Of a DNA stretch of 64,000 bases, positions 1 through 57,562 are shown piece by piece. A program made the translations under genes and the position numbers. The stretch spans positions 24,392,782 to 24,456,781 of the forward strand of contig NC_065535.1 in the NCBI RefSeq assembly GCF_932294415.1. The letters run 5' to 3'. Numbering within the stretch: position 1 is the stretch's first letter; the number at the start of each line of letters is the position of its first letter. This DNA is from Quercus robur. Lineage: Eukaryota; Streptophyta; Magnoliopsida; Fagales; Fagaceae. The notes beneath the pieces were generated by a model. That model saw only the letters and a program-made list of their open reading frames with translations, was not told where the DNA came from and did no database searches.

Positions 1-1900
1 GAAATGGAAAATAATCAATAAAATCTACAATGGAACTTATCTCACTGTGACCCAAAACTCGTGAACATTCAAACAAAATTCTTAGGAACTACAGTTTTAG
101 CTGATAGTTACAATTGGTATTGTGCATTTGGATCATTCACAGTGGTTTTATTTTTTTGGATTTTTCTATTCACTGATTTTTTTGGAATTTTTTTCTAAAA
201 AGTTAACCTCTTTTTAACTGAGAAGCTCTCTAGCTTTTTTGGCTTTTGAGTGTTTGACAAATTGCGTTAAACAATGCTTTAAAGTGGTAGATTTATAAAG
301 CATGATTAGTGAATTGTAGAGTTTTTTCAATAAAAGCTTCAAATTTTAGCTTCCTAATCATGAAGGTTGATGTAGTTAAGCTTTAAACTAGTTTTCTATT
401 GGGGAGGGTTTGGGAATTGGGATAAGCTTAGGTCTTAGTTTTTTTTTCTAAAATACATTGAAAATGCTATTACTATTAGTTGTATGCATAATTTATATGT
501 TTTTAATATATTTCATTCTTCTTTATTTAGGTTTTTTATTTATTAGTGCTCATTTAGATGGAGAAACAAATTTTTATAAATCTTTTCCCCTTTAAGAAAG
601 AAACCAAATAGAATTCTCTTTTTTTTTTTTTTCTTCTTTTTTTTGAGAGAGAATTTGATTGGGAGGCATTGACTCTCTCCCTCAACAACACATGATGAGC
701 CAATCCAGCCAAGGACTATAATATAAGCGAGTGAAACTTCCTCCAATCACAAAACATTGTATTCTGTATTATGGGTCCCAAACCTTCACCTTGATTCTCA
801 TTGGTGCGTGTGGTACACAAACACATGGTTGAGAGTGGAATTTTCTTACAAATTGGCTTGGGAAAAGATAGAAGAAGCAAAAAAAAAAAAAAAATGCATA
901 ATATAGTATAGTATAGAGTTTTTTTAAATAAAAGAGTGTCAGAGGTTAGGGTCAAGTGAACGTGCAATATTTGAAGCATAGATCTGGATCCACTCAAAGC
1001 ACCAAACTCAAATTAAACAACACAAAATCAGTACAATATACACAATACATCACAACACACCAACACTTCTCTCACTCACTGCCACTCTTACCGGTCTTTT
1101 GTTTTTATACTTTCAAAGGAAAGAGAGAGGAGAGAGTGTGTGTCTGTGTGAGGTAGTGTTTAGAAAGAGAGAGAATCTAGAGAGAGAGAGTGCTTAGGTA
1201 ACTAGCTTTCAGCTTCTTCACTGCTCACTTAATAGCCCTGACCCCAAGAAACAAAGCAGCAGTAGTGAAGCGATTGAATGGTTCTTCTCTGCTCCAACTG
1301 CTGCTGCTAGACTCTGCAAACCAGCATAGGAAGAAGGCGGTGGTTTGGCTTTTGTAGTAAAGATTGACACTTTGACTGCTATTATTTATGTTTGAAGAGG
1401 GAAAGAGAGAGAAACAGCAACAAGAAAGTACCTTCTTTCATGGGTAAGCCTAATATTTCTCTCATAATACCCCAAGAGCTGGCTCTTTCAACTTTCAACT
1501 TTGAAATTGGAAAAAAAAGGATGAGAAAAATGTAAAAGGGTTTATAAAGAGAAATACAAGTAACACTGCATGTCAATCTGTAACATTCAGTTCATTATTA
1601 GAAATTGAAAGAATACAAGGAATATAAAGAGAAATACAAGTAACACTGCATGTCCTTATTCTGTAATTTCATTTTGGATGCTATTAATGAGATTATTAGT
1701 AATTTCATTCAAAGAGATTATGCTGTAATTTCATACCAAATTCTTTTATTAATTTATTTATCATTTTGGTGCAAATATACTAGCTGCTGTGGGTGCGAGG
1801 GCTACCACTTCCATCACAACAAATCCATTGTGTGCTGTTAAGACCAGACTCCAGGTAAGTTGGGTGTGCTTCTCTTTGTAACGCCTTGTCTCCTTTCAAT

Positions 1901-1938
<38 letters not shown>

Positions 1939-3447
1939 CTGTTTGCACTCATGAGTTTGTAGTTGAAGCTGTTTTATATTTCATCTTGCATAACACAAAC
2001 TTGTGTGTTGTTTCTAGATATGCTTCCTTTGTGACTCACTCTTAGCTGAATTGCTTTGAAGTGAGTCTTGTTTGAAGATTAACTAAGGTTTATATATATT
2101 CTTTTCTTGTTGGCAGATTGCAAAAAGAAGAGGCACTACAAGTTTGTATAATCAAAGCAAATGAATTTGGTGAAAGACTTAAGGTTCTCTCTCTCTCTCT
2201 CTCTCTCTCTGTTTGTGGTGGGTTGTTGAATTGGGACAAGTTGGTGGCTTGCATGGAGTAATAAGGTGGTTTTAGCTGATATTGGGAGTGTTGACTGTTT
2301 TGTGTAATATTAGATGATTGTTGTTGAGTTGTTTTTTTGTTTTTGAGTTTTAATTCATTTTAAGGGCTTCTCTCTATCTTTTTCATACGTGGAACGCTAA
2401 AATGGAATTGCATATTTAAAGAGATGTCCATTCCTAAAGAATATTGCTAGTAATGATGTTATAGTTACCAAATGTATTGATAACTTCTCTATGCATTTAA
2501 ATTCATTGTTTGATTAGGAACATAGCTAAAAGTGAATTATTAAAGATGATTTGTTTCTTAAATGAAAGTGAAATTGTGTAAATGAAATGTATGTTAACTC
2601 TTGGTTTGTGTTTTCATGAAATCACATTTTTAAATTGATATATTTCAATTTGATGTTAGCTAATACGCATTTCTTTTTATTGTGGGGTCATTTGATTGTT
2701 GGATTACATAGCAAACTCCATTTTATTGTGGAAATGTTATTCTTACTGAGTTGAGGCCTTTATGTTCAGTTCCTTTGTTATATTATAGCATACCTAGTGG
2801 ATTGATATGACTTCCTTTTTTTTTTTTTTTTTTTGGAGAGGTTCATGTGATGAGTTGCTTGTAGAATGCCAATTTTCTCTTGAGGGTTACTGGTTGTTGT
2901 GGCAAAGTAGCACCAACAATTTTGGCACTGTTGCCTTTGGTTATGGTGAGGGGGACACTAGCTTTGTGTGCATAATTTTTGCATCATTCTGGGTTTTAAG
3001 ATTGTCTCCTTTACAAGATTCCCAATGGAGAATTTATTGTTCTACCGTCAAAAAATTGAAAGATAACGAAATTTTAAAGTGATATCGTACTATATGAAAC
3101 AATAATCATAATGTAATTTTTCTTTCTTTCTAGTGGCACCATATCATCTTGACAATTAGGCAATTTATCAATCTTATATATTGACATAAAGTGTAAAGAT
3201 ATTAATTAGTGTAAAGATATTCTTTCTTGTTATGCCTCTGCTTTGTAATTTCAAATTTTCAAAACTAGGAAGCTACAAAGAGAGGTGGTCCTCCCATAAA
3301 AGATCAAGACAAACTATAATGGTCAATCTAAAAGATCAAGAAACTATCTCTTCATTTAACTTGTTCCCATTTTTTACCTTGGTAATATTTTCTTGTCATT
3401 CTATTTCATTTATACGCACTTATTAAGTAATCATACTTTGTATGTAG
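1..3447. other. Unassigned AT-rich region, possibly transcribed
   Basis: I recognise no gene here. A GA-rich tract at about 1118-1190 resembles a plant 5' leader. A 32-bp direct repeat occurs at 1543-1574 and 1623-1654. Splice-like signals are present: a CAG/GTAAGT donor at 1855, an acceptor ending at 2116, a weak donor at 2184 and an acceptor ending at 3447. Together they could define a spliced transcript leading into the short reading frame at 3448-3522. A pure AT run lies at about 1905-1934 and a T run at about 2817-2835. Because a CACTA-type end follows at 4252, this may be the degenerate interior of a CACTA element whose left end lies outside the window. That is inference; no transposase motif was seen. 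Confidence 0.3.
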
Positions 3448-3522
3448 GATGCTCCTCTGATCGAACAATCTCCAGCTCTCCCCAAATCATCAGCCGCATC
3501 TCATCAACCAAGAAGCTTATAA
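3448..3522 (+). CDS. Possible terminal exon of an unidentified gene (24 codons plus stop)
   Basis: After a pyrimidine-rich stretch and a TATGTAG acceptor, a frame opens at 3448 with Asp-Ala-Pro-Leu and runs to a TAA at 3520-3522. The encoded tail is rich in Ser, Pro and Ala and has no domain I recognise. It lies about 370 bp upstream of the CACTA subterminal array, where the last exon of a CACTA-encoded protein would be expected. I cannot connect it to any transposase sequence. The reading frame is short enough to be chance. Confidence 0.2.
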   Translation, partial: DAPLIEQSPALPKSSAASHQPRSL

Positions 3523-3879
3523 GTTTTATCTTGGAGTTCTTGGACTTTTTTGTGTACAAAGAACTATAGAAGAAGAACCACATTTTTTCAAGTCTTGAAG
3601 GATATTTTTAAACACTTTGAAACTTTGATTATAGTATTAGATTAATTTCAGCGGTTGTTTTATTCAAATGACCACATCTTTTTTTTTGTTAATTTTAAGA
3701 TGGTGATTATAGACAATGTTATATATTTGATAATATATTTTTATGTTAATATTATGTTAGTTTCAAGACATTTGTGGTGTTGTTAATTAGTTACATTTGT
3801 GGTATTATGTTAGTAGAATTAAAACTATTACAGATTCTTTGTAATAGGTTTGTGAATTATTTATTTATTAGCAAACTGC

Positions 3880-4252
3880 GGTTTTAAAACCCACCTTGAA
3901 AAAAAAACGACTATAGCGGCGGTCAAAAAGCGCCGCTAAAGGTTAAAAAGTACAATTAATCTATTTCGGTTGATTGACTATAGCGGCGCCTTTTGCCCGC
4001 TGCTAAAAGTCAATTCCACAAATTTTGAACACATATAGCAGCGGTTTTATACCCGCCGCAATAAACCTTCACCCGCCGCTAAAAGATACATCTATAGCGG
4101 CGCTTTTTGTGACTGCCGCAATCGACCTATAGCGGCACTGCAACACTGGTGGGGACAGCCCGCCGCTATAAGTCGAATGTACCTTTAGCGGCGCTTTTTG
4201 GGGCTTTAGCGGCGGTTCTAGCCCGCCGCAATAGCCCGTTTTTCTTGTAGTG
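3880..4252. mobile_element. CACTA (En/Spm-type) transposon terminus with subterminal repeat array
   Basis: The last bases, read on the minus strand, are CACTACAAGAAAAACGGGC, the typical plant CACTA terminal inverted repeat. The 350 bp before it hold about ten direct and inverted copies of a short GC-rich unit (TAGCGGCGGT, AGCGGCGCTTTTTG, CCCGCCGCAATA) in an otherwise AT-rich region. Subterminal arrays of this kind bind the element's own accessory protein in En/Spm. A 3-bp target duplication would be ATT (4253-4255). The partner terminus was not found in the window, so the element either starts upstream or is a broken end. Confidence 0.75.
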
Positions 4253-4255
4253 ATT

Positions 4256-6174
4256 GGCCACTTTTTGTATTTTAGATAGGCTAATATAAGTGCTCTAAGT
4301 TCAAAAGGTTATTATCTTGTTTGTGAAGCTAGGAATTATTGTATAAAAGTATAAACATGTATATATATAATTATATAACAGTGTAGTTTGTAATATGTTT
4401 GATCTTACTTTAATCGCTATAAAAAATAAATCAAAAACTAGGTTTTAGTGGCTTGTTCAAGCGGTGAGTGAGATCTTCACAAAACTGAATAGTGCAATTT
4501 TCTCAACAAAAAAATCACTATTTTTTGAAAGGTGAAATTTGGGATCGATGTAAGGCTAAGTAAAAGGTGAGAGGGAAAGAAACGATAGCTATAGCCACAT
4601 GCAATTAGAATTAAGGCATAATTATAAGAAACTAGCATGTAACTCGTGCTTATGCACGGGAATGATGAATTGCAACAGTGCTATTGATATTAGCTTGGGT
4701 TATAAAACATATAAGATATTAGTTTGACCAGGACATTTGGAGATACTATAATAGTCTTTTCTTGCAATTTTCATGATATTGATTATGCCAAATTTCTCAT
4801 TATATTGCTATTATGTATATAATATTGAAAATCATTATTAGATATTACATATACAACATCAATTCACAATTATTGTCCGTGAAATTCTTCTAAATACAAC
4901 ACAAAATAAAAGAATAAACTGGTCCAAAAACATCTCCTAAATTAATAGGGATAAGTGCATGAGATCGTTCAGCTTAATTACAATTTGTTACATTCAAGAT
5001 CCAGGAATACAAAATATCTGAATAGAAATAGTATAAAAAATATGCTCATTAGTTCAGAGAACAGCAAAAATTTATACAATTTAATTTGTTTGGAAAGCTA
5101 ACAAAAACAAGATTCAATTTTGAATCTAATTGAATTTTCTCTAAGTATTGGTTATATGTGTGTGTGTGTGTGTGTGAGATTAGGTTTTTTATGGTTTATT
5201 TATATTGAACTCCTCATTTTTTATATTGAATTAACTCAGTTTGCACAAAAATTAAAAAATATATATTAGATAAGACAAGTGACGCGAAATTAAACTTTAA
5301 TTGAATTCTAATTTTTACACTGAATTAATTAATTTGGCACAAAAATTTAAAACGTTAGATTAGATAGGACACATAATGCAAAATTAAATTCTAATTAAAT
5401 TCCAATTTAAAATCTAAATACATTTTCTTTCAGTTTTGCCTATATATATATATATATATAATACAATATAATATATAGATGAGGTTATACTTTACAATGG
5501 CTTGCTCCAATGAGAATGCAAGATTGTGACCAAAAAAAAAAATTCTCCAAATATCAATTTACTAAAATTCATTAAGCCCAACAATTTTTTTTTTTTTTGG
5601 TTGAGAAGACAACAAAATTAATTTGGTTATTCATAACATCACATTTTTCACTGGAATTTCTTCAAAACTCTTATATTCATAACTAAACAAAATTATATTG
5701 CACAAATTACAAAATCAACACCGTTCTTTCAAATTATGAAAAGCGAAAATTTCACTTTATAGTAACGAGATTCTACTTCATGCTCATTTTCATGAATGTA
5801 TACAATCTGAGTCATATGATTAATATTGAAAAATATTATCAGTAATTTTACTAATAAAAAATATGATCAGTAATTTATTTATGAAAAATATTATCGCTGG
5901 TTTAATTTTTAGAAGAAAAACAAAAACAGACATATATGGCCATACCTCACAGTAAAAGCATTATACTTGTGAGTTTTGATTTCTATTTAGCATTCAAATT
6001 GGAAAACAAAAATATATAAAGTCTAATTAGAAATTCAAAAGATCCAAAAACAATGGGTGAAAAATGTTAATGTACGTACGTTTTCCCTCTCATTCCATAC
6101 GTTATCAATAGTGGCAACATCAACGTCTTAGTTGAGGAAGGAGGATATGGGCAAGTTTGAGTAAAAACTGAGAT
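4256..6174. other. AT-rich intergenic DNA without a recognisable gene
   Basis: No supported coding sequence. It contains a GT run at about 5155-5176, an AT run at about 5443-5460, T/A tracts, and a short CGTGC...GCACGGG palindrome at about 4645-4661 of a kind common near plant repeat termini. Two near-copies of a TTAATTGAATTC-type segment at about 5260-5410 suggest an old local duplication. Confidence 0.5.
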
Positions 6175-6197: not shown

Positions 6198-9100
6198 CAA
6201 TGTTATTAATAACGTTTCGGAGCCTGTTTCGGTTCATCCAGTGGAATGGAATATTTCGGTATCGGCCGATTTCGGCATACCGTTTCAGGGTGTTTTGGGG
6301 TTTCTGAAAAAATAATTTATATATATTCTTGTAGAACATAAAATTGTCAATTCTAATAAATAAATAACTAAATATCAAATAATACAAATCATTTAGTCTT
6401 AACTCTTAAGTCTTAAACATTAATATAACATCAATTTAACATCATGCAATAAGAACATTTAACATAATATTACTCCTCCTCCTCATCATCATCCATGAGA
6501 AAAGGATCAAATTCATCATCAAAAGAACTTCCACAAGAACTACTAGCACCCATTGGAAGATTTGTCAGGCCATGTTCATTGTTGTTGTCATCATCATCAT
6601 CATCATCATCAACATCAATAGTTTCAAGTTCAGCATCCTCTTCCACATTCACTAGGGGTGCTGGTTCATTAAGACAGTCCCAATTTATGTCATCTGGATT
6701 AAGAAGTGCAGGTTCTTCAGCCACCCAATCTCCCATCAAGTCAATGTTATACAAGCTTATAAGATCCAATGCATACTTATTCCTTTGAATGTTCCTACCA
6801 ATGAGAATATTAAACATTAGTAACATTTTATAAATTATAATTATTTGAAAGTACATTTCATTTACATATGAATAACGATTATAAATTTACCTTTCTTGAA
6901 GCCTCAAATTATAATGGACAAAGACCAAATCATTTACTCGTTTATGTTCCAATCCTTTTCTCTTCTTTGAGTGAACATATTCAAATGTGCTCCAATTTCT
7001 CTCAGAACCAGTTGCACTACAACATTGACTTAGCACACGAATGGCAAATGATTGTAAGTCTGGAGCTCCAAGTCCAAATTGCTCCCACCATGAAACTACA
7101 ATAACAAATAAAAATGTAAAATAAGCATTACTCATGTAATCTTACAATAACAACTATAAAGGATAAATAGACATATTAAAAGGAAATACTATTAAATTAT
7201 TAATGTTTACCTGGATTTAGTCTCTCTCGTTGGCGGATTGCTAGTGATGTGTCAAAGTCACCAATTAACTTTTTGTACTCATCAAGTTGTGAACTTATTT
7301 TGTCTTGAATGTCAGGATCGGGAACCAGCCTCATTAGAGTGCTTAGCAACCCTCTTTGAACTTCATTTTGCCTTTTAAATGAAGACCTAAAGTAAATTGC
7401 AGGGTTAAGAAAGCAACCTGCTGCATGCAGAGGACTATGAAGTTGTTTGTTCCATCTAGCATCAATAACTCTAATATAATGTCCATACAAAGAAACTTTG
7501 TTCTTCAACCTTCTTTTTATTTCCTCTTTTGCTTTGTCCATTGCTTCATACAAGTACCCCATAGCAGGTTTCTCATCCCCATCAACAAGACGAAGTACTC
7601 TAACTAAAGGCCCACCAACTTTCACTATGTTCTTGCATTGAGACCAAAACGAATAATCTTCCAAAACAATTTTACTTATCTCCTTCCCAACGGCAATCTT
7701 AGCATGGGGGCATGAAAGCCATTTATCCCAAGTGAACATTTGTCTAAGCTCTTTTTTGAACCTTAGCATGCTCTATAGACTTAAGAAGTTAGTGGCAAAC
7801 CTTGTAATTGCAGGACGACATAACTCCCTTCCATTTGTAAAATCTTGCCTCATCAAGTCTAAAACAACTCCATGGTTGTAAATGAACTTTGTTATCTTTT
7901 TTGCCTTCTTAATTGCTTCATCAACAAAAGGGAACCACCTAGGATTAGCAATATTCTCCAACATCAAGTCTATGCAATGAGCTGCACAAGGAGACCAAAA
8001 TAAAGTACCATACTTCTGCTGTAATTTTTTTCCAAGTTTTTTATAGGCAAAAGCATTATCTGTAATCAATTGCACAATATATTCCACACCAATTTCTTGA
8101 ACAACATAATCAAATATATTGAATAAAGTTTCAGCATCCTTTGTAAGGCCTGAAGTGTCAATAGATTTCAAGAAAATGGCACCCCTTGGACAATACACCA
8201 AAAAATTCATTATTGGTTGTTGTTTTTGATTTGTCCACCCATCAGACATCATCACTGAACAGCCATATACTTTTCAATCATTTTTTATATCTAACAAAAA
8301 ATCATTAACTTCATGGACAGCATTTTTCAAAAGTGGTCCCCTCAACTCATAAAAAGAAGGCCCCTTAAATCTCGGCCCAATAGCAGCAATGCAATCTATC
8401 ATAAGTTGATAATAGGGTGACTGAGATGCATAAAAGGGTACATTAGAATGATACCACCATCTTGCCACATTCATTTTTGCATTATCAGTCATTGCTTTTG
8501 TAGCCAAAGCACTTCTTATAGAAGGTTGAGCACCAAGGGTTGTTCTAGGAGCAAAATAACTCTTAATTTTCTTCTTTCCTCTTAATTGACCCATATCAGT
8601 GTCAACATCCTTTGCCCTAGATTTTTGTTTACCTAATGTTTGAGTGGGACTCTTTTCAACAACCCTAACCTCATCATCCTCCTCCTCCTCCTCCTCATCA
8701 ACATCATATGGGTTCCCAATTTCTTATTGAATCCTCTTTTTAGTTTGTTTAGATTTTTTCAAGTCTTCAATCATTTGTTTCATTTGAAACCTAATATCAT
8801 ATGAAACCTTTTTACATGGTTCAACTTGACCCCTAATCCCAGCAAGATGATACTTAAGTCTAGTAATACCACCCTCTTTAATCAACTTATTACAATGCAA
8901 ACATATAGTGTTATTTTTTGCGTTAGGCACTGCACGGGCATGAGCCCATGCAGGATCCTCTGATCTTGCAGGGGCAAAGCCCACAGAAGCAAAAGAAGTA
9001 CCTGCACGGGCATGAGGCCATGCGGGATCCTCTGAACTATGATGAGCCATAGTTTACTGTTCAATGAAATGAAATGAAATTCAATCAAATGCATGAAGTT

Positions 9101-10025: not shown

Positions 10026-10294
10026 ACTTTCAGATCAAAAGGAAAGAAAAATTTTTAGATCCAATATCTCTTCCCTCTTTCAGGTACATATTAACTTCCA
10101 GTCTCTCACTATGCTACTGCCGTCGCCAGAAAATCACCGCCACGTTACCGGAGTCCCATTTCGTTGATCTCCTTCTCCTCCCACTTCTTCTTCGTTAAAT
10201 AACCCAGAACCTCTTTCTTGGCTTTTGTTTTGCGTTAGCTTGGCTTTTCAATTTCTTTTGTTTTGTCTTTTTTTTGTTTGAGGGAAGCTACGTT
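10026..10294. other. Intergenic spacer, nothing recognised
   Basis: CT-rich sequence and T runs. A reading frame crosses it from the hAT-like fragment, but it matches no family I know and is probably chance. Confidence 0.4.
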
Positions 10295-10434
10295 TACAAC
10301 ATTTTTACAACAAATTACAGGTGGTTAGTTGTTATTGGTTCAAATTTGAACCTAACACTAAGATTACTTTTTTGTCCCAACAATAACAACCAGTAATAAC
10401 CTGCCATTTAGGATTTGTTGTAAAAATGTTATAG
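10295..10434. mobile_element. Hairpin MITE, copy 1
   Basis: About 140 bp with terminal inverted repeats TACAACATTTTTACAACAAA at the left and the complementary TTTGTTGTAAAAATGTTATA at the right. The interior is also partly self-complementary (GTTGTTATTGG / CCAGTAATAAC). A diverged second copy lies at 15416-15566. No coding capacity; flanking target duplications are not clear. Confidence 0.7.
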
Positions 10435-10914
10435 ACATATCATTTCTCTTTTCATTTATGTGCTTGACAACTTTTACCCAACTTTTACTACTAATAAATT
10501 CCAAGTTCCAACTTCAGCCCTTTTATTATTAATTTATTTGAATAAAATAAGTTTATATTTTTTTTTTATTGTTTTGTGTGTCTAACACCTAGTCACGTGA
10601 AGATAAATTCAAACTTAACTTCCTTTTATTAAGTTTTTAATTTTTTTATGAATTTTTTTTTGGCAAAAATCTCATTTTCATCCCTATATTTTCACACGAT
10701 TCTCACTTTGATCCCTATTTTTTATTTTCACTGCTTTTAGTCCCTAAAATCAAAAAAGCAATCTCGTTTTTGTCCCTACCGTCAGTGTCCTAATAGCAAA
10801 GTCCTAGGTGGTAGACAGAACACCCTATTAACTGATGTGACGCTGATGTGACACTGATATGGCGATCAAAATATTATTTGGCATTTTTATATGCCACATC
10901 AACATTTTAATTTT

Positions 10915-12428
10915 GGCGAAAACTACATTTTTGTCCCTACATTTTCACGCAATTCCACTTTGGTCCCTAACTTTTATGACCACCGCTTTTAGTCCTTATC
11001 CTGAAAAACGCGTCTCGTTTTTGTCCCTGCCATTACATCAGATACAAAAAATGCACACATGGCAAACAGAGTGCACTGTTGGCACACTAAAAGCTGCCGT
11101 GGCCATTAAAATAATAATAAAAAATGTTATTTGGCATTAAAAAATGCCACGTCAGCATCTTAATTTAAAAAAATTAATTTATTAATTTTAACTAAATAAA
11201 AAAAATCAAAACAGAAATAAAAATCAAAATTCACAAGAAAAAAGATCTAAAAGTATCTTGACCAAGAACACCAATCCAGACTTAAGATCTCAAAATTAAA
11301 AACCAAAAATCACAAACCCAGAAACATAAACACAAACCCAGCAACAGATCAACCAAACCGAATCCTTCACCACCCAAAACTGAATCCTCCCACAACCTCT
11401 TCCCACACTTCCTCTCATTCACTGAGCAACTAATAACACTATCAGGAAACTTGGGCAGCCATTTGGGCACATGGGAAGAAGAAGAAGAAGCCCAGGAAGG
11501 AATGGAAGTAATTTGTAGGCATGGGATTGGCTTGGCAAATGGGATTTCGTCATTGAAGGAGACGAAGTCAGCGAGGTCTCTGATGATTCCTCCTCTGGAG
11601 GAAGAGATGAAGAAGAGAGTGGAGGTATGGAGAGTAACGAGGTGGTGGAGGGCAAGTATGAGGTCCAGCAGGTTCGACTGCGTGCGGTTGGAGGTGTTGG
11701 CCAAGGAAGAGGCCGACTTGGCTATGGCCTTGAGGTACTTGGTGGCCACCATGGTCAAAGCGTTGAGTGCGGAGAGCTGGGTGGCCTTGTACCCCACTGA
11801 CTGGCAGATCTGCGAGACTGCTATTTTGGGTATGGCGAATGAGAACTCTGATGGGTTTTGGGGTTCTTCTTGATGAAGATGAAGATGGGTTTTTGGTTTT
11901 GAAGGAGGCTTTGCTTTCATGGTGATTTGTTGTTGCAGAAGTAGAGGATGAAGAAGAAGGTATCAAACCCTAGGCCTCCTTTTTAATAGGGGAGATTTTA
12001 CTTTTGGTTGATCTGTTGCTGGGTTTATGGTTTTTGGTTTTCAATTTTGAGATCTTAAGTATGGGTTGGTGTTCTTGGTGTTCTTGTTCAAGATTCTTTT
12101 AGATCTTAATTCATGTGAATTTTTATTTTTATTTTTATTTTTGTTTTGATTTTTTTTTATTTAGTTAAAATTAACAAATTAATTTTCTAAATTTAGATGC
12201 TAATGTGGCAAATAACATTTTTTATTATTATTTTAATGGCTACGTCAACTTTTAGTGTGCCAACAGTACACTCCCTTTGCCACGTATGCATTTTCCATCT
12301 CTAATGTAACAGCAGGGACAAAAACGAGATGTGTTTTTCAATATAGGGATTAAAAGAGATGAAAATAAAAGTTAGGGACCAAAGTGGGAATTACATGAAA
12401 ATATAAGGACGAAAATGAGGTTTTCACC
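10915..12428. mobile_element. Inner Pack-MULE carrying a TAF8-like gene fragment, nested in the outer element
   Basis: A 1514-bp element with inverted arms at 10915-11359 and 12007-12428. It begins GGCGAAAACTACATTTTTG, and the right end read inward begins GGTGAAAACCTCATTTTCG. The 9-bp target duplication TTTAATTTT is perfect (10906-10914 and 12429-12437). Removing the element restores a continuous left arm of the outer element, which matches the outer right arm across the junction. The arms resemble those of the outer element, so both belong to one family. The centre (about 11360-12006) is a captured host gene piece on the minus strand. Confidence 0.9.
11282..11920 (-). CDS. Captured TAF8-like (Bromo_TP histone-fold) gene fragment, 212 codons, open frame
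   Basis: The minus-strand frame starts at Met 11920 and is open for 212 codons. Residues about 27-130 resemble the Bromo_TP histone fold of plant TAF8-type TFIID subunits: KIAVSQICQSVGYKATQLSA, then SNRTQSNLLDLILAL, then RDLADFVSFNDEIPFAKPIP, the hallmark Pro-rich end of that block. TAF8 pairs through this fold with another TAF inside TFIID in the nucleus. The C-terminal 50 residues or so read into the transposon arm and are unlike TAF8, so the product would be a chimera. No intron remains in the piece. Whether it is expressed is unknown. The family call is fairly safe; TAF8 versus another Bromo_TP gene is less so. Confidence 0.7.
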   Translation of the reverse strand: MKAKPPSKPKTHLHLHQEEPQNPSEFSFAIPKIAVSQICQSVGYKATQLSALNALTMVATKYLKAIAKSASSLANTSNRTQSNLLDLILALHHLVTLHTSTLFFISSSRGGIIRDLADFVSFNDEIPFAKPIPCLQITSIPSWASSSSSHVPKWLPKFPDSVISCSVNERKCGKRLWEDSVLGGEGFGLVDLLLGLCLCFWVCDFWFLILRS

Positions 12429-12664
12429 TTTAATTTTTTATAAAAAGCCATGTCAAACAATTTAAACCAAAAAAGAAAATAAGTTAAAAACAAAACTTTT
12501 TTTTTTTTTTTTTACTTTCATTATGTTTTCGTAAGAACTAAAGTTGTTCTTCGTGTTCTTCCTAAATCCATGAAATAAACCAATCTCTAGCAAACCCTAA
12601 ATCCAAATCCAACAACAAAATCTACTCCATCAAATCCAGAAAAACAAGAAATAAATCCAAGAAA

Positions 12665-13165
12665 CTAAACCAAACCATAAATAAATCGCAAAAATAAACT
12701 CATAAACCCAATAACCAATTCAATCTCTAGCAAACCCATAAAACCAAAATTTTTCTTCAGAAAGAAACATACAAAAAAAACCCATAAAAACAAACAACTC
12801 AACATTCTCTCCAAAAAAAAAAAACAAAAACACAAACAAACCCAAAGTTTGTGTGGCGGAGGTGGCAGGGAAGAGGAGTCAACAATGCTACACTGGCGAG
12901 GACTACGGGTGGAGGAATTGTTTGGGGAAGGGTTCGAGAAGTTTGTTTTGGCCTTAGCATTGCGGAACTCGCGAGTTGCGGCGTCGTAGGCACGCGCCAC
13001 CTCTTCGGCTGTGTCAAAAGTGCCGAGCCAGACTCAGGTCTTCTTCCCCGAGTCGCGAATCTCAACTGCGTAGCAACCCCATGGACGCTTCCTCACGCCT
13101 TTGTATCGGATCTCCTTAGAGTTCAGATCCAGGTTGACGGAGCCGAATCTGTCTTTGGGAGCCAT
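12665..13165 (-). pseudogene. Captured AP2/ERF transcription factor fragment with a stop in the DNA-binding domain
   Basis: Reading from Met at 13165, the frame gives MAPKDRFG, then an AP2/ERF domain ([12 protein letters not shown]...EIRDSGKKT, stop, [19 protein letters not shown]) and a short NFSNPSP tail. The TGA at 13034-13036 stands where ERF proteins have Arg (KKTRVWLG), a CGA-to-TGA transition at a CpG. The rest of the domain is intact, including YRG-like and RAYD elements, but the Arg and Ala usual at RWPWGRYAAEI are changed to Cys and Val. Homology ends near 12842; the remainder reads into the transposon arm. The C-terminal part of the parent (an EAR motif in many ERFs that begin this way) is absent. 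ERF proteins bind GCC-box promoters. This copy cannot make a complete domain. Confidence 0.85.
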
Positions 13166-13265
13166 TTGGGTTTGTAAAAGTTTTGGAGATTTGGATTTGT
13201 TTGGAATAAGAAGTGAAAGAGTCAAAAATAGTGTTTAAGGAAAGGAAGGAAGTGAGGGTGTGGGT

Positions 13266-13273
13266 TTTTATAG
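13266..13273 (-). promoter_or_regulatory. TATA box captured with the ERF fragment
   Basis: On the minus strand CTATAAAA lies about 100 bp before the ERF start codon, followed by a C/T-rich leader. The capture therefore took promoter, leader and N-terminal coding sequence as one block. Confidence 0.5.
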
Positions 13274-14001
13274 AGGCAGGTTAGAGAGAGAGAGTGTGTG
13301 TTTAAAAACTACGCTCCTTTTGGACAATTGTTGTGTATAGAGTAAGCAGGATGTGGCTTCTGAAGCACAAACCAGTTGGGTTAGATTCAGAACGTGGAGT
13401 TTTTTGTTTTTGAAGAAAAATTTTGGGTTTTTGGGTTTGCTAGAGATTGAATTGGTTACTGGGTTTATGGGTTTATTTCTTCAAGTTATTTATGGTTTGG
13501 TTTGGTTTCTTCGATTTATTTCTTGTTTTTCTAGATTTGATGGAGTAGATTTGGTTGCTGGATTTGGATTTGGGGTTTGCTAGAGATTGGTTTATTTCAT
13601 GGATTTAGGAAGAACACGAAGAACAACTTCAATTCTTACGATAAAATAATGAAAGTAAAAAAAAAATATATATATATATATATATTTTAAGTTTTGTTTT
13701 TAAATTTATTCTCTTTTTTGGTTTAAATTGTCTGACATGGCTTTTTATAAAAAAATTAAAATGCTGATGTGGCATATAAAAATGCCAAATAATATTTTAA
13801 TCGTCACATCAGCGTCACGTCAGCTAATAGGGTGTTCCATCTGCCACCTAGGACTTTGCCATTAGGCACTAATTGTAAGGACAAAAACGAGATCACTTTT
13901 TTTATTTTAGGGACTAAAAGCGGTGAAAATAAAATATAGAGACCAAAGTGGGAATCACGTGAAAAAGTAGGGACGAAAATGGGTTTTTCGCCTTTTATTT
14001 T

Positions 14002-15415
14002 TAGCTTCAACTATAGTACACCAAATACATAAATATCTAATGGATTTATCATTATAATAATTATTATTATTAAGCAAACCTACTACCATGTGTCATCTAA
14101 AAAAAACTTTGTATTATTAACAATAATAATTAAAAATAATATCAATGTATAATGAATTTTAAAAGATAGCATTTTAACTAAAATTTAAGGATCAAAGATA
14201 TTTAAATGAGTTTTTCAAAAAAAAAAAAGATATTTAAATGAGATGTCTTATAATTTATAAATACATTTAATAAATTGTGTGCACTTCAACTTTTACTAAC
14301 ATGAGTTTTACACTTCATCATTATAACTAAATTTGAGCTCTTTATAAAATAATGGTAATCTCAAGACGGTACACTGGTACCGAAATATTTCATTTTACTG
14401 ACTAAACTGGTACAATCTCCAGTACAAAATTGACTATTTTGATATGAAGAGAATCATTACCAAGATAGCCAACACATCAAAATGGAAAGAAACTTACGGC
14501 GACCAGAAATAAAAGGTGAATAGAATCTCATTGGTGAAAGCTTTGGCTTGCCCAAGCTCCTTCACACAAAAATTAAATTTAAGAAAACAATTATATAGTA
14601 GGTACATTACTGATTAGCCACAAACAAGAAGAAAATATAAAATTAATTGATACAAATTCGAAGGAGAAAGAAGTCAACGATCTAATACATTGCAATGACC
14701 AATGTAGATATTTGAACTCCTTAGATAGTCAACCCATATAAGTACTATATAGGGTGAATTATATGTAAGAGTAAATTAATTTGATGATAAGGCGCATGTC
14801 ATAAGTTAGAGGTTTAACGGGGATATAATTGCATATCTTTAAGTGTTTTATCAAATTGGTCAATTAGATAAGTAGTTTTTTAATGTGACTCCTACTTTAA
14901 TGAACAAGTAAAGATTAAAGTAAATTAGAAATCTAGTCATTTTAACTGAACTAGAAGTATACATCAAAAGAGTCAAAAGAGAGAAACCAATACTACATAG
15001 AATTACTATTTATTGAATCTCGAGATAATTGCATCAATGGATCTCGTCTTATGACTATTTAATTATTTGTAGTTGTTAAATGCTTAACAACATAAAGAAA
15101 TTATTAATTTACATCTATACATACCTCTATATATATATATATATATATATAAATATATATGATTTATTTAGCCTGCCATTTGAACATTGTAAAACACTTG
15201 GAAAATTTACCAAACAATTTGAGTGCATGTTACTAAAAGATTTTGTCGTTACCATTGGTGGTATCTGACACGGGAGGTTCCTCCTCATTCACGTTCAGCA
15301 CAGCATCCATCTATAGACTATAAACTGTCTGTAACTTTGTATTCCTATCTATTTTTGTCTTTCCCTTTTCTCTTATTTCGATCTCGCTGGCGATAAGCTG
15401 TAAGCCTTCTTCTAT
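14002..15415. other. AT-rich spacer without recognised genes
   Basis: Nothing coding is supported. It includes AAT/ATT-rich stretches, an A run at about 14219-14229 and an AT run at 15129-15151. Confidence 0.5.
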
Positions 15416-15566
15416 GTCCACAATATTTTCACAATAAATTTTATTTGGTAGGTTATTGTTAACTATTATTGGTAGATAGAAAATAATTTCAATGGTGGGT
15501 TCAAATTAGAATCAGTAATAACTTAATTAACATATAAGATTTGTTGTGAAAATGTTGTACATGTAA
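15416..15566. mobile_element. Hairpin MITE, copy 2
   Basis: Same family as 10295-10434: the left end CCACAATATTTTCACAATAA is complementary to the right end TTGTTGTGAAAATGTTGTAC, with a similar TTATTGTTAACTATTATTGG interior. It is more diverged and slightly longer than copy 1. No coding capacity. Confidence 0.65.
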
Positions 15567-15837
15567 CACTTCTAAAAAAAAAAAAGCAATACACAAAAAA
15601 CTTTATAACATTTTTCACAACCATTGAGTTGAGAATCTTTTACTAGTTCTCATCTACCACTAACATTACATTAATTTTTATTTACTACTATAAATCTGCC
15701 TCATCAATAGATGTGAAAAGTCTTGTCAAATTTTTTGTGTTCATAAACTTTCTTCAAAAAAAAAAAAAATCTATGTGGTTAATTAGTAATTTTGCATCTA
15801 AACGCAAGAGATTAGAGTTTAAATTATATATGTGCGC

Positions 15838-29288: not shown

Positions 29289-30652
29289 TTTTTACTTAGA
29301 TGGATTTGAATGATGAGGTACTTAAGACCATAATTTTTTTTGGACTTTATGCAAAAACTAGCATTGGTTCATGCTACATGCTGTTATTTGTGTTATATTA
29401 TCCATCAAAGGCAACGACTAAAAAGAAGACACGTTCCCCAGATTCCTACATAATCAACCATAGAAAGACAAAAAGTTTATGATGAAATAATGTCTTGACT
29501 TAGGAATAGTAAAAAATACTATGATGTAATATGCATGGGTTCACAAGCTTTTCAAGGTTTGTATGACATTTTGCGGAGAGATGATGATCTTTAAAACACA
29601 CAGCATGCCACGGTTGAAGAGCAAGTTGGCAAGTTTCTTCACATGCTATCACATAATGTGACGACTCGTACAATGTCCTTTCTTTTTTTCTTTTTTTTTT
29701 TGTCGTTCTGGTGAAACCATTTTCATAACGTGTTAAGATCAAGTGCCACTTGAAATACTACAAAGTAGTAGGTTTAACCCATATTTTAAGGTAAATATAT
29801 CATGCATATAATTTATATTTGATAGTAGTTTAGTACAAATATATTTTAAGGTAAATGTTTTTGAGAGATAATGTTAATCTCAGGATTGTATTGGGGCACT
29901 TGATGGAACACATGTTTGTGTCAAAGTGTCTAATGAGGATGCACCAAGATATCGGGGTAGGAAGGGTTACACAACACAAAATGTGTTGGCGGCATGCTCA
30001 TTTGATTTAAAATTCATATATGTATTACCAGGTTAGGAAGGAACTGCTTCAGATTCAAGAATAATAAAGAGTGCTTTAACTAGAAACGATAACTTGAAAA
30101 TCTCACAAGGTAAATTTAATTCAAATATGTTTTAGGGTGTATTCTTTATAATTAAAAAATTTGTAGTATATAATTAATGGTTGTTATTGTTTATTAGGTA
30201 AATATTACCTTGTTGATGCGAGATACATGAATAGAAGTCGTATGATTGCATCTTATAGGGGAGTGCATTATCATTTAAAAGAATACTCTATGCGTCCCCC
30301 TGAAAATGCTAAAGAATTGTTTAATTTACGACATTCATCACTACGCAATGCCATTGAAAGAGCATTTGGTGTACTGAAAAAGAGATTTTCTATCATAGTA
30401 AGTACTACAGAGCCTACTTATTATGTTGACACACAAAATGAAATCATTTTATCATGTTGTATATTTCATAATTATTTAATGGGTGTCTATCCTGATGAAA
30501 GTCTTATTGCTACAGTTGATGAAAAGGTTTTACATTCTCATCTTGGACGTGTGGCCCCCACTCCAAGAGAAGATGATGAGGATGCTAGGCAAGGAGATAT
30601 TTTAAGAGATTCTATAGCATCAGCCATGTGGCAAAACTATGTCCAAATATGA
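29289..30652 (+). pseudogene. PIF/Harbinger (HARBI1-like) DDE transposase, degenerate
   Basis: The N-terminal part (about 29480-29720) is recognisable (GLYDILRRDD, EEQVGKFLHMLSHN) but has stops and a T-run insertion. Exons 29884-30109 and 30198-30652 are well kept and join in frame across an 88-bp GT-AG intron. They carry GALDGTHV (first Asp), GTASDSRI (second Asp) and SLRNAIERAFGVLKKRFSI (Glu), the DDE_Tnp_4 triad. A TAG near 30033 replaces the Trp of the usual PGWEG motif. The protein would cut and rejoin the TTA-flanked ends in the nucleus; this copy cannot be made whole. Confidence 0.85.
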
Positions 30653-34660: not shown

Positions 34661-35002
34661 TTAATGTTGTGATTAATAAAGTTGTTTTATTATTATCTAA
34701 AATAATGGTAATATAAATATTTGGACATTATCATATAGCCCATAAGATGCATAGTATGTAATTTATGTGATTTACTCACAGAAGATATATTTGGACATTC
34801 CATTCCCTTATGATCATTTCATTCCATTTCATTCCCTTCCCTTATGAATTCCCAAACGGAGCCTTAATGTTGTGATTAATAAAGTTGTTTTATTATTATC
34901 TAAAATAATGGTAATATAAATATTTGGACATTATCATATAGCCTATAAGATGCATAGTATGTAATTTATGTGATTTACTCACAGAAGATATAAATCACAA
35001 GT
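34597..35002. repeat. 203-bp tandem duplication across the MITE/LTR junction
   Basis: The right end of the MITE plus about 140 bp of LTR are repeated with period 203. Copy 2 begins CCATTCCCTTATGATC at 34800. The copies are almost identical, so the duplication is recent relative to the LTR divergence. Confidence 0.85.
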
Positions 35003-36207
35003 TCTTTATAAACTTAAAATTTTAGTTCGTAGTCAATGATGAAATTAAGTATTTCGTCTACGAAGACTATAACATATCAACTAAGATGATTTGTCTTGAT
35101 CATAGAAGTTGAGACTTCTAGTTGATATGTTAATATATTTTAAGAGTTAAGACATATTGAACTGGACCGCTGTGAGATTTATTATTCTCCTAACGATTGT
35201 CAAATGAATAACAAATCTCACGACTTCTATTTACATCAACTTTTTATCCTGAGAGAATAATGGACTTGATCATGAAGTGTAGGTTGTTTTGATATATCAG
35301 GAGTGAGATCTAAAGTCATGATCAAAACCTCAGTATGTTGAGCAACCACATTTAGTATTAATTGAACATATATTCTTAAGATGGAATTCATAATATCTTA
35401 ACAGAGATATAAAATATTCTCTTAAAAAAAGTTTGATGGATTTGGTTATTCAAAGTGTTAGACCTAACCACTTTAGTAATGAGTTACTAAAGTATATATT
35501 TATGAAATTGGATTTCATAAATATATGATGAACAACTTAAAGGATTAAACCGAGTACTCAAGGATTAAGATGGAGTAATCTTCAAAGTAGCAGTCTACAT
35601 TCATGCTTTTGTATTACTACGAATATTTTAATGAAAGGGTTGCATGTACAATAAAGTCTTGGGATATAATTTATTAATAAGGCTTAGAGTGCAATTATAT
35701 TTATATAATGATATTAAATATAATTAATGGTAACTTTGGACTTGTCAAGAGTTAACAAAAAAGCCCAAGGCCCATTGGAGCTAGTGTCTTATTTGTTACC
35801 TTTTGATCCCACTCCAAGTCACGTACTAAAACCCAATTGGAATGACCCATGAGGCTAGCCCAATTAGATAATCAGTTATAAGGAGAGAAACATACAGAAT
35901 TTTGAGAGAGAATGAAATGTTTTTGTATGTGAGTGTTGGACACTTTCTTACTCTCCCTTGAACATACACATATAAACTGATTGAGAGACCACACTTCTTA
36001 GGCATAAGTGGAATTTGAGTGAAGATTAAAAGTGTTCTCAAGTACTTCTAATCTTTATTTTTGAATTTCACCGTACCAAGGTACACTCTTTTATTCTTGT
36101 ATTCTGAAATTTACATAGTACATGTTATCAATTGTGAATGAAGTAGATTTGTTAATTTTCCGTTGCGTATGTTTTGTATACGATACAAACTATGTTTTTC
36201 CAACAAC

Positions 36208-36223
36208 TGATATCAAAGCAAGG
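36208..36223 (+). other. Primer-binding site of the copia element
   Basis: TGATATCAAAGCAAGG two bases after the LTR resembles the initiator tRNA-Met site TGGTATCAGAGC used by copia elements, with transitions. Confidence 0.65.
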
Positions 36224-37359
36224 TTTTCAATTTCAAATCTGTATAACATGTTTTGTGAGTTTTGGAATTAGAGATAGTAATTTCAAGATGTTAGAAGATT
36301 TAGTAATTAATTTTCTGCATGGTCATTGAAATTATTGTTTGATAAAAACTGATATTAATGTTAAGATGTTGTTTAAGTTTGATGTTAAGTATGTTAAATT
36401 GAACTTTAAAGCTATAGCATCAATGGAATTCAGTTTTGATATCAATCTCTGTATATTATGTTCTTTTTCAATCGATCGAGAAGCGATTGAGTACCAATCA
36501 AGCTAGATAGATTGCTGAGTTTGGTTCAATTGATATTCGATTGCTAGTCAATCGATCGAATGTTCTTTTTTGATCGATCGAGTACCAATCGAGCCAGGTA
36601 GATTGTTAGGTATGATCTTTTTTAATTTTTTCAACCGATCGAGATACATATTCGATCGATTGAAAACTGAGAATTTAGAATTTTTTCTAAGTGTTTTCAC
36701 ATATAAAGAGCAAGGCTTTGTGTGATTAGATTACATTTGTTTTCTAATTAAAAACCTTTATTTTAAAACATCTAGTGAGAGAGAGATACAAGGGTTGGAT
36801 CTCACGGCCTCCATTGTCGGTTTATAGTAGTATGATTAAGCACCTCACCTTGGCGTATATGCCTTGCTCCCTTCAGAGGATGTTTAATTCATGTTTCTAT
36901 AAATTAAACTTCTTTTTTTTTTTTTTTTTTGACTGTGAAGATAGATAAATTAAACTTCTTAATAATGAATGATATGTGTTTTTACATTAAGAATGACCAT
37001 GCTACCATGGAGTTACTTAACGACTCACATAAAATTCAAGCTATGGTGTACACTAGACTAAGTTTAATGTTAACCTCCCTTCGGAGCTATGTCATTATTA
37101 CTTAGAGGCTAAAGGAAATACAGCATATTATTAGGGTTTGATAAGAGTTATCATGATAGCACTAATAATGAGAATAGTTCTCAATCAGTCATAGTGTTTA
37201 TAATTTACTTGCTACCAAGGAATTTAAACATGGGATTGGGTTGTCATTGCTTATTTTATATTATGGTTTTATTAAGGTTCCATACTATATGTTTATATGC
37301 TAAATTGTTAATGTCTAGTTTACTTATTATATTCATGTTTATTGTTTTCAAATTTGTTC
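36224..37359 (+). other. Untranslated leader of the copia element
   Basis: No ORF is supported. Five CGATCG palindromes, most embedded in TCGATCGA, lie at 36473, 36553, 36575, 36636 and 36653. They stand out in a leader that is otherwise CpG-poor. A T-run insertion lies at about 36911-36929. Confidence 0.5.
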
Positions 37360-38241
37360 ATGGCATCATTTAACCCACTTGTTACTATTCTTAATCAAAA
37401 CAAACTGACTGGATCTAACTATGTTGACTGAAAAAGAAATTTGGACATTGTTCTTACTACTGAAGAGCACAAATATGTGCTTACTCAACCATGTCCATCA
37501 TTAGATGCTCCTTTTAAGGAAAAACAACGATATGATCATTGGCAGAAATCTAATGAGATGGCCAAGTGCTATATCCTAGCATCTATCTCAAATGTTCTAC
37601 AACATCAAATGCAAGATGTAGAACTATTTTCGGACATAATGCTAAGTTTGAAGGAAATGTTTGGTGAGCAAGGCCGTTCTACAAGGCAAGAAACTATGAG
37701 GCAAATTTATAATACCAAAATGACTAATGGCACTTCAGTGAGGGAGCATTGTCTTAAGATGATCTCTAATCTGAATACACTGGAAGTTTTAGGTGTCGAT
37801 ATTGATGGAGAATCCCAAGTGGATATGATACTCCAGTCACTACCAAAATCATTTAAGGAATTCAAACTTAATTATAATATGAACAAAAATATTTATTCAT
37901 TGTCTAAATTAATGAATGAATTGGTGGCAGCGGAAGGCATTCTTGGTACATTCAGTGTTGATGCTAATATGGCTAAAACTTCTACTTCTCAACCTAAATC
38001 AAAATGCAAAGGTAAGGAGAAGAAGAAGAAGAAGGACTTTACCAAGCAAGATGGTAAACAAATTGCCTTAAGAGTTACCAACAAAGGAAAGAAAACCAAA
38101 GGAAGGTGTTTAGTACAAAATCCCACGGATTCTTGGTTTGTAAAATCAGGTTGTACTAATCATATCTGCAATTCTTTGCAGGGGTTCCAAGAGACCAAAA
38201 AGCTGAATGAAGGCGAATTGTTTCTTAATTACTTTGGCTGA
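37360..38241 (+). pseudogene. copia gag and start of protease, one early stop
   Basis: Met 37360 opens the usual copia gag (MASFNPLVTILNQNKLTGSN). A TGA at 37429-37431 stands where the family has Trp (YVDW), a TGG-to-TGA change. The frame then runs clean to 38241 through QRYDHWQKSNEMAKCYILAS, a Lys-rich linker (about 38000-38060) and the start of the protease-like site SGCTNHIC near 38150. A frameshift near 38240 ends it. No clear CCHC knuckle is seen in the Lys-rich stretch. Confidence 0.85.
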
Positions 38242-39186
38242 TGGAAGCAAGATTCCAGTTGTAGCTGTTGGAGTGTTTAATTTATGCTTTGAATCTAGGG
38301 TTTTTAATATTGGAAAACTGTTTATATGTACCTAATGTTCGTAAGAATTTAATTTCTGCAACTTATTTAGGTAATCATGGATATTGTGTTATCCTAAAAG
38401 ACAATGTTGTAATAAAGAAGGGTAAAGTGTTTATCTGTTCTAGCAATATTGTTGATGGTCTTTATATTTTAACTCCTGATAAGCATGAATTATATAACTT
38501 TGAATTAGATAATGACTCTCATGTAAAATCATTAAAAAGAAATTTTCCTTCTACTAATGATGCATATCTTTGGCACTTGTATTTGGGTCATATTAATCCA
38601 AACAGAATTCAAAGACTAATCAAAGATGGACTTTTAAAGCCATTGGAATTTGATGAATTTCCAGTTTGTGAATCTTGTTTGGAGGGAAAAATGACCAAAC
38701 AACCTTTAATGCAAAAGGTAGAAGAGCCCAAGAATTACTTGAATTAGTTCATACGGATGTATGTGGTCCTATGTCAACCCAAGCAAGAAGAGGTTATGAG
38801 TACTTCATCACTTTTACTGATGATTACTCAAGATATGGTTATGTGTACCTAATGAAGCGGAAGTCCGAAACTTTTGAAAAATTCAAAGAGTTTAGGGTTG
38901 AAGTTGAGAATCAATTTGGTAAACACATAAAGGCCATTCAATCTGATCGAGGTGGTGAATACCTTTTTGGGGATTTCAAGGATTACTTAACTCAAAATGA
39001 GATTGTATCCCAATTGACTACACCTAGAACTCCCCAACAAAATGGTGTAGCAAAAAAAAGGAATAGGACTCTTTTAGAAATGGTTAGGTCCATGATGAGT
39101 TACTCAACTTTACCGATTTCTTTTTAGGGGTATGCCTTAAATACAACAATACATCTTTTGAATTTAGTTCCATCAAAATCTATTCC
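38242..39186 (+). pseudogene. copia integrase (GAG-pre-integrase and core)
   Basis: GAG-pre-integrase: YLWHLYLGHINPNRIQRL and CESCLEGKMTKQPL, the zinc-binding HHCC region. After a frameshift near 38700 the catalytic core follows: LVHTDVCGPM (first Asp), AIQSDRGGEYL (second Asp) and TPQQNGVAKKRNRTLLEMVR. In the last motif the Glu usual after VAKK (VAERKNR-type) is changed, so the catalytic Glu appears lost. A stop at about 39125 interrupts it. Confidence 0.8.
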
Positions 39187-39196
39187 TTAAACACCC

Positions 39197-41228: not shown

Positions 41229-41242
41229 GGCAATTGGGAGAT

Positions 41243-42128
41243 TATTAGGATATATGCCCTTAAATCCTATTGTATGATGCTATGTATGACCTTATGTATG
41301 ACTTATTAATAAAGTTGTTTTATTATTGTCTAAAATAATAGTAACATGAATATTTAGACATTATCATTTAGCCCATGAGATGCATAGTATGTGATTTAGT
41401 CACAGAGGATATAAATCACAACTTCTTTGTAAACTCAGAATTTTAGTTCGTAATTGGTGATGAAATTGAGCATTTCATATGCGAAGATTATAAAATATCA
41501 ACTAAGATGATTTGTCTTAATCATGAAAGTGGAGACTTCTAATTGATATGTCAATATGTTTTAAGAGTTAAGACATATTGAACTGGATCGCTGTGAGATT
41601 TATTATTCTCCTAATAACTGTCAAATCAATAATAAATCTCATAACTTCTATTTACATTAACTCTTAATCCTGAGAGATAGACCTGATCATGAAGTGTAGG
41701 TTGTTTTGATATATCCAGAGTGAGATTTAAAGTCATGATCAAAACTTCAGTATGTTGGGCAACCACATTTAGTGTTGATGGAACATATGTTCTCAAAATG
41801 GAATTCATAATCTCTTAATGAAAATATAAAATATTCCCTTGAGATAAGTTTAATGGGTTCGGTTATACAAAGTATTAGGCCTAACCACTTTAGTAAGGAG
41901 TTACTGAAGTATATATTTATGAAATTGCATTTCATAAATATATGATGAATAACTTAAAGGATTAAATCAGGTACTCAAGGATTAAGATGTAGTAATCTTC
42001 AAAGTGGCAGTCTACATTCATGACTTTGTATTACTATGAATATTTTAATGAAGGAGTTGCATGTACAATAAAGTTTTGGGATATAATTTATTAATAAGAT
42101 CTAGAGTGCAATTATATTTATATAGTGG
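41243..42128 (+). repeat. 3' LTR of the copia element, first part
   Basis: It begins TATTAGGATATATGCCC after a polypurine AATTGGGAGAT and follows the 5' LTR until it is broken by the Tat element at 42129. The remainder resumes at 57059-57557. The uninterrupted equivalent in the 5' LTR is near 35706. Confidence 0.9.
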
Positions 42129-42921: not shown

Positions 42922-43202
42922 ATAACCCCTCAAAATCTTGCTTTTCGACTCCTCGGAAGGAAATGAGGATTTTGACATCCTTAGTCCATCTTGCTTTTGG
43001 TCCTATTCTATATTCCTGACCTCTCATGCATTTTTTCGCCCGCTCAGGGCACGCTCCTGAAGCTTCAGCGTCCAGAGCATGCCAGCATTAAATTTTGGCA
43101 ACGACCTTGTCCCCCACGTTCAACGGTAAGATGTAAATCTAACGGTGGAAGGTTTTTCTTGTTTTGCGAGCGGGAATTTTCCCGCTTGTAACTTCTACGC
43201 CA

Positions 43203-57557: not shown

Positions 57558-57562
57558 AGGGG

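Follow-up and report, generated by a model that had tools for sequence, protein, structure and literature searches.

Jiang et al. are said to have described Pack-MULEs in rice and other plants in 2004. Capture is the subject of a review (PMC13317346), Pack-TYPE elements assembled from the DNA of several loci have been reported (PMC8903248), and gap-filling and template switching have been discussed in a paper whose cited passages leave their role in Pack-MULEs open (PMC8277862). TIRs and target-site duplications (TSDs) are given as hallmarks in PMC6446971, which also presents aphid MULE regions where successive elements apparently inserted into each other. In maize and rice, over one third of the candidate coding (transposase-bearing) MULEs are reported to contain nested insertions (PMC3903597). 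Multiple-TIR MULEs, for which the absence of an inner TSD was used to exclude nesting (PMC3310237), and non-nested arrays of SaTar MULEs in guayule (PMC5907723) have also been described. Among the matches listed in a literature search, no title dealt with one Pack-MULE inside another, and that by itself does not show that such a case is absent from print.

We analysed a window of 64,000 nucleotides of the Quercus robur genome (C2:24392782-24456781 of a 785.7-Mb assembly, on which the genome searches were run). It contains two elements, one inside the other (Table 1), that are Pack-MULEs by anatomy: both carry host gene fragments (with Bromo_TP and AP2 domains, respectively) whose donors lie elsewhere and have no arms. 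An Rfam search of the window returned 0 families.

Table 1. Features of the stacked elements, in coordinates of the window
Feature	Positions	Strand	Remarks
Outer element	10662..13992		Inverted-repeat element; left arm split by the inner one
Outer left arm, first part	10662..10914	+	Terminus GGCAAAAATCTCATTTTCATCCC; aligns to reverse complement of 13752-13992
Outer left arm, second part	12438..12767	+	Aligns to reverse complement of 13403-13760
Outer right arm	13403..13992	-	Equivalent to the left arm, but not split
Possible outer duplication, left copy	10653..10661	+	TTTTTTTTT; 8/9 against 13993-14001, nearly homopolymeric
Possible outer duplication, right copy	13993..14001	+	TTTTATTTT
Inner Pack-MULE	10915..12428	.	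1514 bp; inverted arms; sister elements
Inner left arm	10915..11357	+	Inverted-repeat match
Inner right arm	12003..12428	-	3-nt overlap (AAA) with the capture at the junction
TSD of inner element, left copy	10906..10914	+	TTTAATTTT; outer right arm has the same site without insert
TSD of inner element, right copy	12429..12437	+	TTTAATTTT
Captured TAF3/TAF8-type fragment	11361..12005	-	85 bp upstream of ATG and ~186 codons, including Bromo_TP histone-fold domain
ORF, 212 aa	11282..11920	-	From the donor's ATG through the capture into the arm
Captured AP2/ERF fragment	12846..13388	-	Covers the AP2 domain and the 5' region but not the C-terminal DLN end; start codon (ATG) 13165, stop in frame (TGA) 13034-13036
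Capture/arm junction sequence	13389..13402	.	AGAACGTGGAGTTT; absent from donor; common to 3/3 sister loci on contig C35 through 13401

Anatomy of the nested elements

Long inverted arms, a hallmark of Mutator-like elements (about 100-500 bp), are present in both elements, at ~430 bp and 87% identity in the inner one (355 of 407 aligned bases, plus 34 gap columns; E = 4e-113 for the pair by blastn) and at 583 and 590 nt and 91% in the outer one once the insert is excised. The other hallmark, a TSD of 8-11 bp and usually 9, is perfect around the inner element (9/9) and around an outer-type sister on contig C35 (L061, 9/9). Around the outer element of the window the two copies agree at 8/9, and the nearly homopolymeric sequence makes this weak evidence. 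Sequence related to the outer left arm extends to ~12846 in other copies (matches to positions 1-67 of the search query).

An earlier note on this DNA had claimed that the inner element, with its perfect 9-bp duplication, interrupts the left arm of an AP2/ERF-carrying outer element of the same family, and had proposed excising the insert in silico and aligning the restored arm. The inner element and its place in the arm both stand: after excision of 10915-12437, the left arm aligns to the reverse-complemented right arm without a break across 10914/12438, at an identity of 90.7% (518 of 571 aligned bases) with 31 gap columns, and the misalignment that the note had envisaged as refuting its reading did not occur. 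The near-equal arms that it reported (586 and 588 bp) were also recovered, with lengths of 583 and 590 nt by our measurement. As for the single family, the inner and outer termini are 78-81% alike over the terminal 112-123 bp and the longest stretch common to an inner and an outer arm spans 246 columns at 72%; the two elements represent related subfamilies of one Mutator-like superfamily, so that the common superfamily is retained and the closer kinship is not.

The outer right arm reads through the inner insertion point without an insert. Likewise, no insert is present at this point in 6/6 further outer-type arms (both arms of L061 and one each of L062, L063, L064 and L065), the comparison being made with arms that have more than 400 aligned columns. 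The ERF piece was the reason for fetching L061; L062-L065, which supply 4 of the 6 arms, were picked from the full-length matches of the outer-arm search (2071 first-look candidates, of which the best 40 were scored) and were therefore selected for their uninterrupted state. The A/T tract at the insertion point varies in length by up to ~11 alignment columns among the arms. These empty-site arms are strong evidence for the nesting. The inner TSD alone is moderate evidence, because random pairs of 9-mers from the same 4.8 kb match at 9/9 with a frequency of 4.1e-5, which rises to 0.9% for pairs made up of A and T alone. The outer element is the earlier of the two insertions and the inner element the later.

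Captured gene pieces and their donors

The inner cargo contains a Bromo_TP domain (Pfam E = 1.1e-18). Used as a genome query, 11345-12000 has two matching places, itself and C40:18261482-18262136, the latter lying in a gene with a 297-aa frame that includes Bromo_TP. Compared with this donor (L011 4978-5641, contig C40), the captured piece shows 26 mismatches in 641 aligned bases (96% identity per aligned base; 4.1% divergence) and 27 gap columns. The arms of either window element have no match in the 9.9 kb surrounding the donor; the cargo alone matches there. By sequence, the best match of the donor protein is a TAF3 chain (E = 4e-6), and TAF8 chains match weakly (0.0057 and 0.035). Because the donor product is nearest to the TAF3 chain and then to TAF8, we name the cargo TAF3/TAF8-type; the histone-fold gene piece called TAF8-like in the earlier note is real, and TAF8 as its identity is not certain.

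At the right junction of this capture, 3 nt (AAA) are assignable to either the arm or the donor, and at the left junction base 11360 is unaccounted for. Both junctions are compatible with template switching during repair, short of proof. That the inner element moved after the capture is indicated by its TSD; the TAF piece has no genome match besides itself and its donor. Within the coding part, three of the four indels relative to the donor are multiples of three and the fourth is 1 nt at the capture end. Crude counts give 12 non-synonymous and 8 synonymous changes (dN/dS ~0.48), and 13 of the 20 are C>T or G>A. The still-open frame and the preponderance of indels in threes are allowed by pure decay and not required by it. 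Selection on the TAF piece was considered and dropped, 8 against 12 changes being too few to tell.

The outer cargo contains an AP2 domain (Pfam E = 3.9e-11 when X is substituted for the in-frame stop). Its top genomic match, C37:24265792-24266333, lies within an intact ERF frame whose product ends in LDIDLNNPPPPEVA, which we take to be an EAR-type motif. The copy and this donor (L052 4293-4834, contig C37) are identical at 490 of 538 aligned bases (91%; 8.9% divergence), with 9 gap columns. No terminal pair of arms was found at the donor, where one stray 39-nt match falls to the low-complexity part of an arm. With both donors located on other contigs (C40 and C37), the claim that two host regulatory gene fragments share 3.3 kb is borne out. 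The ERF copy has one in-frame stop, inside the AP2 domain, and 30 of the 34 coding differences from donor to copy are C>T or G>A, a pattern that fits methylated, decaying sequence and probably reflects silencing by methylation.

The sequence of the capture junction beyond the donor match is exactly the same in all three C35 loci, which retain 71 bp of the ERF gene only, according to a donor search of the fetched stretches. Among these, L061 (complete element, 970-3543) is flanked by its own perfect 9-bp TSD (TATCTTAAT). The outer Pack-MULE lineage therefore moved after the capture. The same ERF donor gene was found in three MULE groups, namely the outer element with its C35 copies, L054-L060, and L053, and the captured interval differs between the groups. 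A 5-bp segment common to L053 and the outer ERF copy is missing from the donor, which would fit either a deletion on the donor side after capture or a transfer between elements.

Sister copies and arm divergence

A genome search with the inner arm (10915-11360) gave 41 matches including itself, from the best 40 scored of 2524 first-look candidates; genome match counts are lower bounds throughout, the best candidates alone having been scored. From this family, 20 loci were fetched, 8 picked as visible arm pairs and 12 as single arms. The search for sister copies that the earlier note had suggested was productive, with complete elements in 17 of these loci; L020 and L030 have no second arm within the stretch and L031 is complex. 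With the ends allowed to shift by as much as 4 and the best TSD taken, five of the 17 sisters have a perfect non-homopolymer 9-bp TSD, one a perfect 8-bp TSD, five match at 8/9 and two at 7/9, and four are homopolymeric. Ten interior ORFs from nine sisters were compared with Pfam; two matched, to Branch (PF02485) and TAXi_C (PF14541), and the other eight had no match.

In 16 of the 17 sisters, one or both arms resemble an arm from a different element more closely than the two resemble each other. The arm tree has a clade of 22 arms that includes one arm, and not the other, of 12 of the 17 sisters; after rerooting, this clade is labelled with a support of 1.0 and the 20-arm clade next within it with 0.61. 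The arm divergence in the inner family seems to be inherited, and for this reason it is unusable for dating; its use as a measure of insertion age was ruled out. The arms of the inner element (87%) are more diverged than those of the outer one (91%), the wrong direction for a clock. This serves as a warning that in this family arm divergence misleads, the younger element having the more diverged arms. Divergence from the donor is smaller for the inner cargo (26/641, 4.1%) than for the outer cargo (48/538, 8.9%), which agrees with the order of nesting, provided that the rates of evolution of the two genes do not differ.

The best 150 of 1249 candidate MULE transposase domains in the genome were scored and 150/150 passed the cut-off; some sit in open frames of more than 700 aa. 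Domesticated relatives may be among them. None of these domains could be tied to the arms of the window, as would be expected of an autonomous partner with a MURA-type transposase. No transposase was found close to the listed arm or cargo places, the nearest pair being 53 kb apart when 115 places were compared with the best 150 of 1249 transposase matches. The 115 places were taken from 129 arm or cargo rows, leaving out the outer rows of the window, small sub-hits and the armless MCM2 rows, and both lists come from searches in which the best candidates alone were scored.

A second stack

Ten loci had been chosen by their ERF sequence, without regard to nesting. Seven of them (L054-L060) hold a smaller related element with ~165-205 bp from the ERF gene described above, and an inverted arm pair is present in 7/7. 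At L060, this ERF-carrying element is split by another element (2910-4318) whose arms are 95.9% identical and whose duplication reads AATTAAGAA/AATTAATAA; the site is unbroken in the other six of the seven loci. An MCM2_N piece (PF12619, E = 4.4e-8) lies within the insert. A PDB sequence search with its MCM2-like ORF gave 0 matches, as did a Pfam search with its second ORF. Three further full-length copies of the insert have TSDs that are perfect over 9 bp in each case (TTTTTTTTA, TAAAAGAAA and TAAAATCTA), differ in sequence and include one that is nearly homopolymeric. A locus on contig C3 matches the MCM2 cargo without arms in the 3.5 kb looked at.

Because the MCM2-carrying insert splits an ERF-carrying element, there are at least two cases of a Pack-MULE inside a Pack-MULE in this genome. 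The earlier note had called such nesting unusual; this is unsupported, since the second, independent stack was met unsought and nested insertions in MULEs have already been described (PMC3903597). The families concerned are also abundant (2524 and 2071 first-look candidates).

Origin of the stack

We are nearly certain that the locus consists of two related Pack-MULEs, an outer one with the ERF piece that inserted first and an inner one with the TAF3/TAF8-type piece that later entered the left arm of the outer one, most simply by chance, both with decaying cargoes. Each of these non-autonomous Mutator-like elements took up a copied fragment of an unlinked host gene between its arms, probably by repair with template switching, and transposase supplied in trans from elsewhere would have moved both. 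Once the outer element was in place, the inner one entered its left arm, in what would be ordinary cut-and-paste transposition, at an A/T-rich 9-bp target that was duplicated in the process. The nesting is most simply accounted for by chance insertion of an abundant family into A/T-rich DNA, and both cargoes would be decaying, probably non-functional copies.

MULEs with additional internal TIRs exist (PMC3310237), and the stack could in principle be a single composite element of that kind, with both gene pieces and the internal arm pair captured in one event. Against this, the inner arms bear a perfect 9-bp TSD, the very feature whose absence is used in the cited part of PMC3310237 to reject nesting of its own elements, and arms without the insert exist. 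As the genome matches of the TAF piece are confined to itself and its donor, they include no other copy in which it is joined to the ERF piece; the uninterrupted element with both pieces for which the earlier note had proposed a search did not appear, and among these genome matches there is no second copy of the stack nor any sign that it moves as a unit. A one-event composite, which we rejected on the TSD and the empty-site arms, is exceedingly improbable. Expression of the TAF3/TAF8-type piece as a functional chimeric gene, in which an arm promoter would drive a 212-aa product with a histone fold and an arm-derived tail, is likewise very unlikely. The frame is open from the donor ATG and includes Bromo_TP, three of four coding indels keep the frame and the crude dN/dS is below 1. 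However, a constrained donor lineage alone would push the ratio below 1, the 8 and 12 changes behind it are too few, 13 of the 20 are C>T or G>A, and the piece has no second copy.

Insertion at random may also be set against targeted self-insertion, in which the superfamily would prefer its own arms. The two stacks and the adjacent elements at L059, L021 and L031 would fit such a preference, but they come from a small, non-random sample, the insert of L060 lies beside the arm of its host and not at the matching place within it, and abundance together with A/T-rich targets suffices; we regard targeting as unlikely. Unlikely as well is the idea that Pack-MULEs, by stacking, hand cargo from one element to another. 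The presence of one ERF gene in three groups could reflect either repeated capture or such element-to-element transfer. Four arms within 3.3 kb would allow hybrid elements with new pairs of ends. If stacked Pack-MULEs were to exchange cargo, this would be a route to multi-gene Pack-MULEs. What the nesting of two Pack-MULEs in the window does provide is an internally controlled order of events, with capture and insertion of the outer element followed by insertion of the inner one, and with both donors known.

Comparison with known systems

The structure exemplifies ordinary transposon behaviour in a clean form. The features of Pack-MULEs in general, namely long terminal arms, 9-bp TSDs, copied fragments of unlinked host genes, sisters with other cargo and multicopy members, recur in these elements and their relatives. 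There is no difference in kind; here the arms measure ~430-590 bp, and an arm is often nearer to that of a foreign element than to its partner. The nested MULEs of maize and rice also harbour other elements, DNA transposons included, but those MULEs carry transposase (PMC3903597), whereas in the window gene fragments are carried by host and guest alike. The SaTar arrays likewise bring several non-autonomous MULEs close together, as uninterrupted elements (PMC5907723), whereas here one element splits another. With the multiple-TIR MULEs, the stack shares the presence of more than one arm pair at a locus. In those elements, as described in the cited part of PMC3310237, the inner arms lack a TSD and some move as units; extra arms without their own TSD and movement as a unit are not seen in the window, where the inner arms have a TSD of their own and the genome search found the stack nowhere else.

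Pieces of the ERF gene in different MULE groups

The 5' part of a single ERF gene (positions 4046-4834 of its donor locus, L052) is present in related MULEs that fall into three groups or more, and the captured interval of the gene differs between the groups. Besides the donor, the loci with this part are L053, which holds a piece of the gene and stands as a MULE group of its own, seven loci with a smaller related element (L054-L060), and L061, which has a complete element of the outer type. The occurrence of ERF pieces in several MULE groups may reflect either repeated capture or transfer from element to element.

Stacked and adjoining elements

A second Pack-MULE stack was identified at L060 (1577-4611), where the ERF-carrying element hosts an MCM2-carrying element (2910-4318) flanked by a 9-bp target-site duplication whose two copies differ at one base. 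The MCM2 element has three more full copies, each with a perfect 9-bp duplication of distinct sequence. At three further loci, elements of the same superfamily are neighbours, no more than a few hundred bases apart (see table).

In the family of the inner element (L012-L029), 16 of the 17 complete elements have at least one arm that resembles an arm from a different element more closely than it does its partner in the same element; therefore, the arms of these elements are not homogenised.

Other repeats and transposon pieces in the window

Three pieces of transposase type, at 7776-8273, 52361-54469 and 30167-30652, have DUF659, BED and hAT, and DDE_Tnp_4 domains.

Coordinates of adjoining elements (within the named locus) and of other features (within the window)
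Feature	Position	Strand	Remark
Adjoining elements	L059 1575-5138
Adjoining elements	L021 561-4314
Adjoining elements	L031 545-5477
Transposase-type piece	7776-8273	-
Transposase-type piece	30167-30652	+
Transposase-type piece	52361-54469	+
Small inverted repeat	10252-10439, 15413-15600		two copies (71%) bracketing the nested elements; first copy contains an imperfect palindrome
Copia pieces between direct repeats	34875-42922		gag and reverse transcriptase, 37432-40962
Solo-LTR-like copy	56266-57558		related to the preceding entry
Inverted repeat	58501-58811, 63582-63893		~312 bp, 93% identity, spacing 4.8 kb
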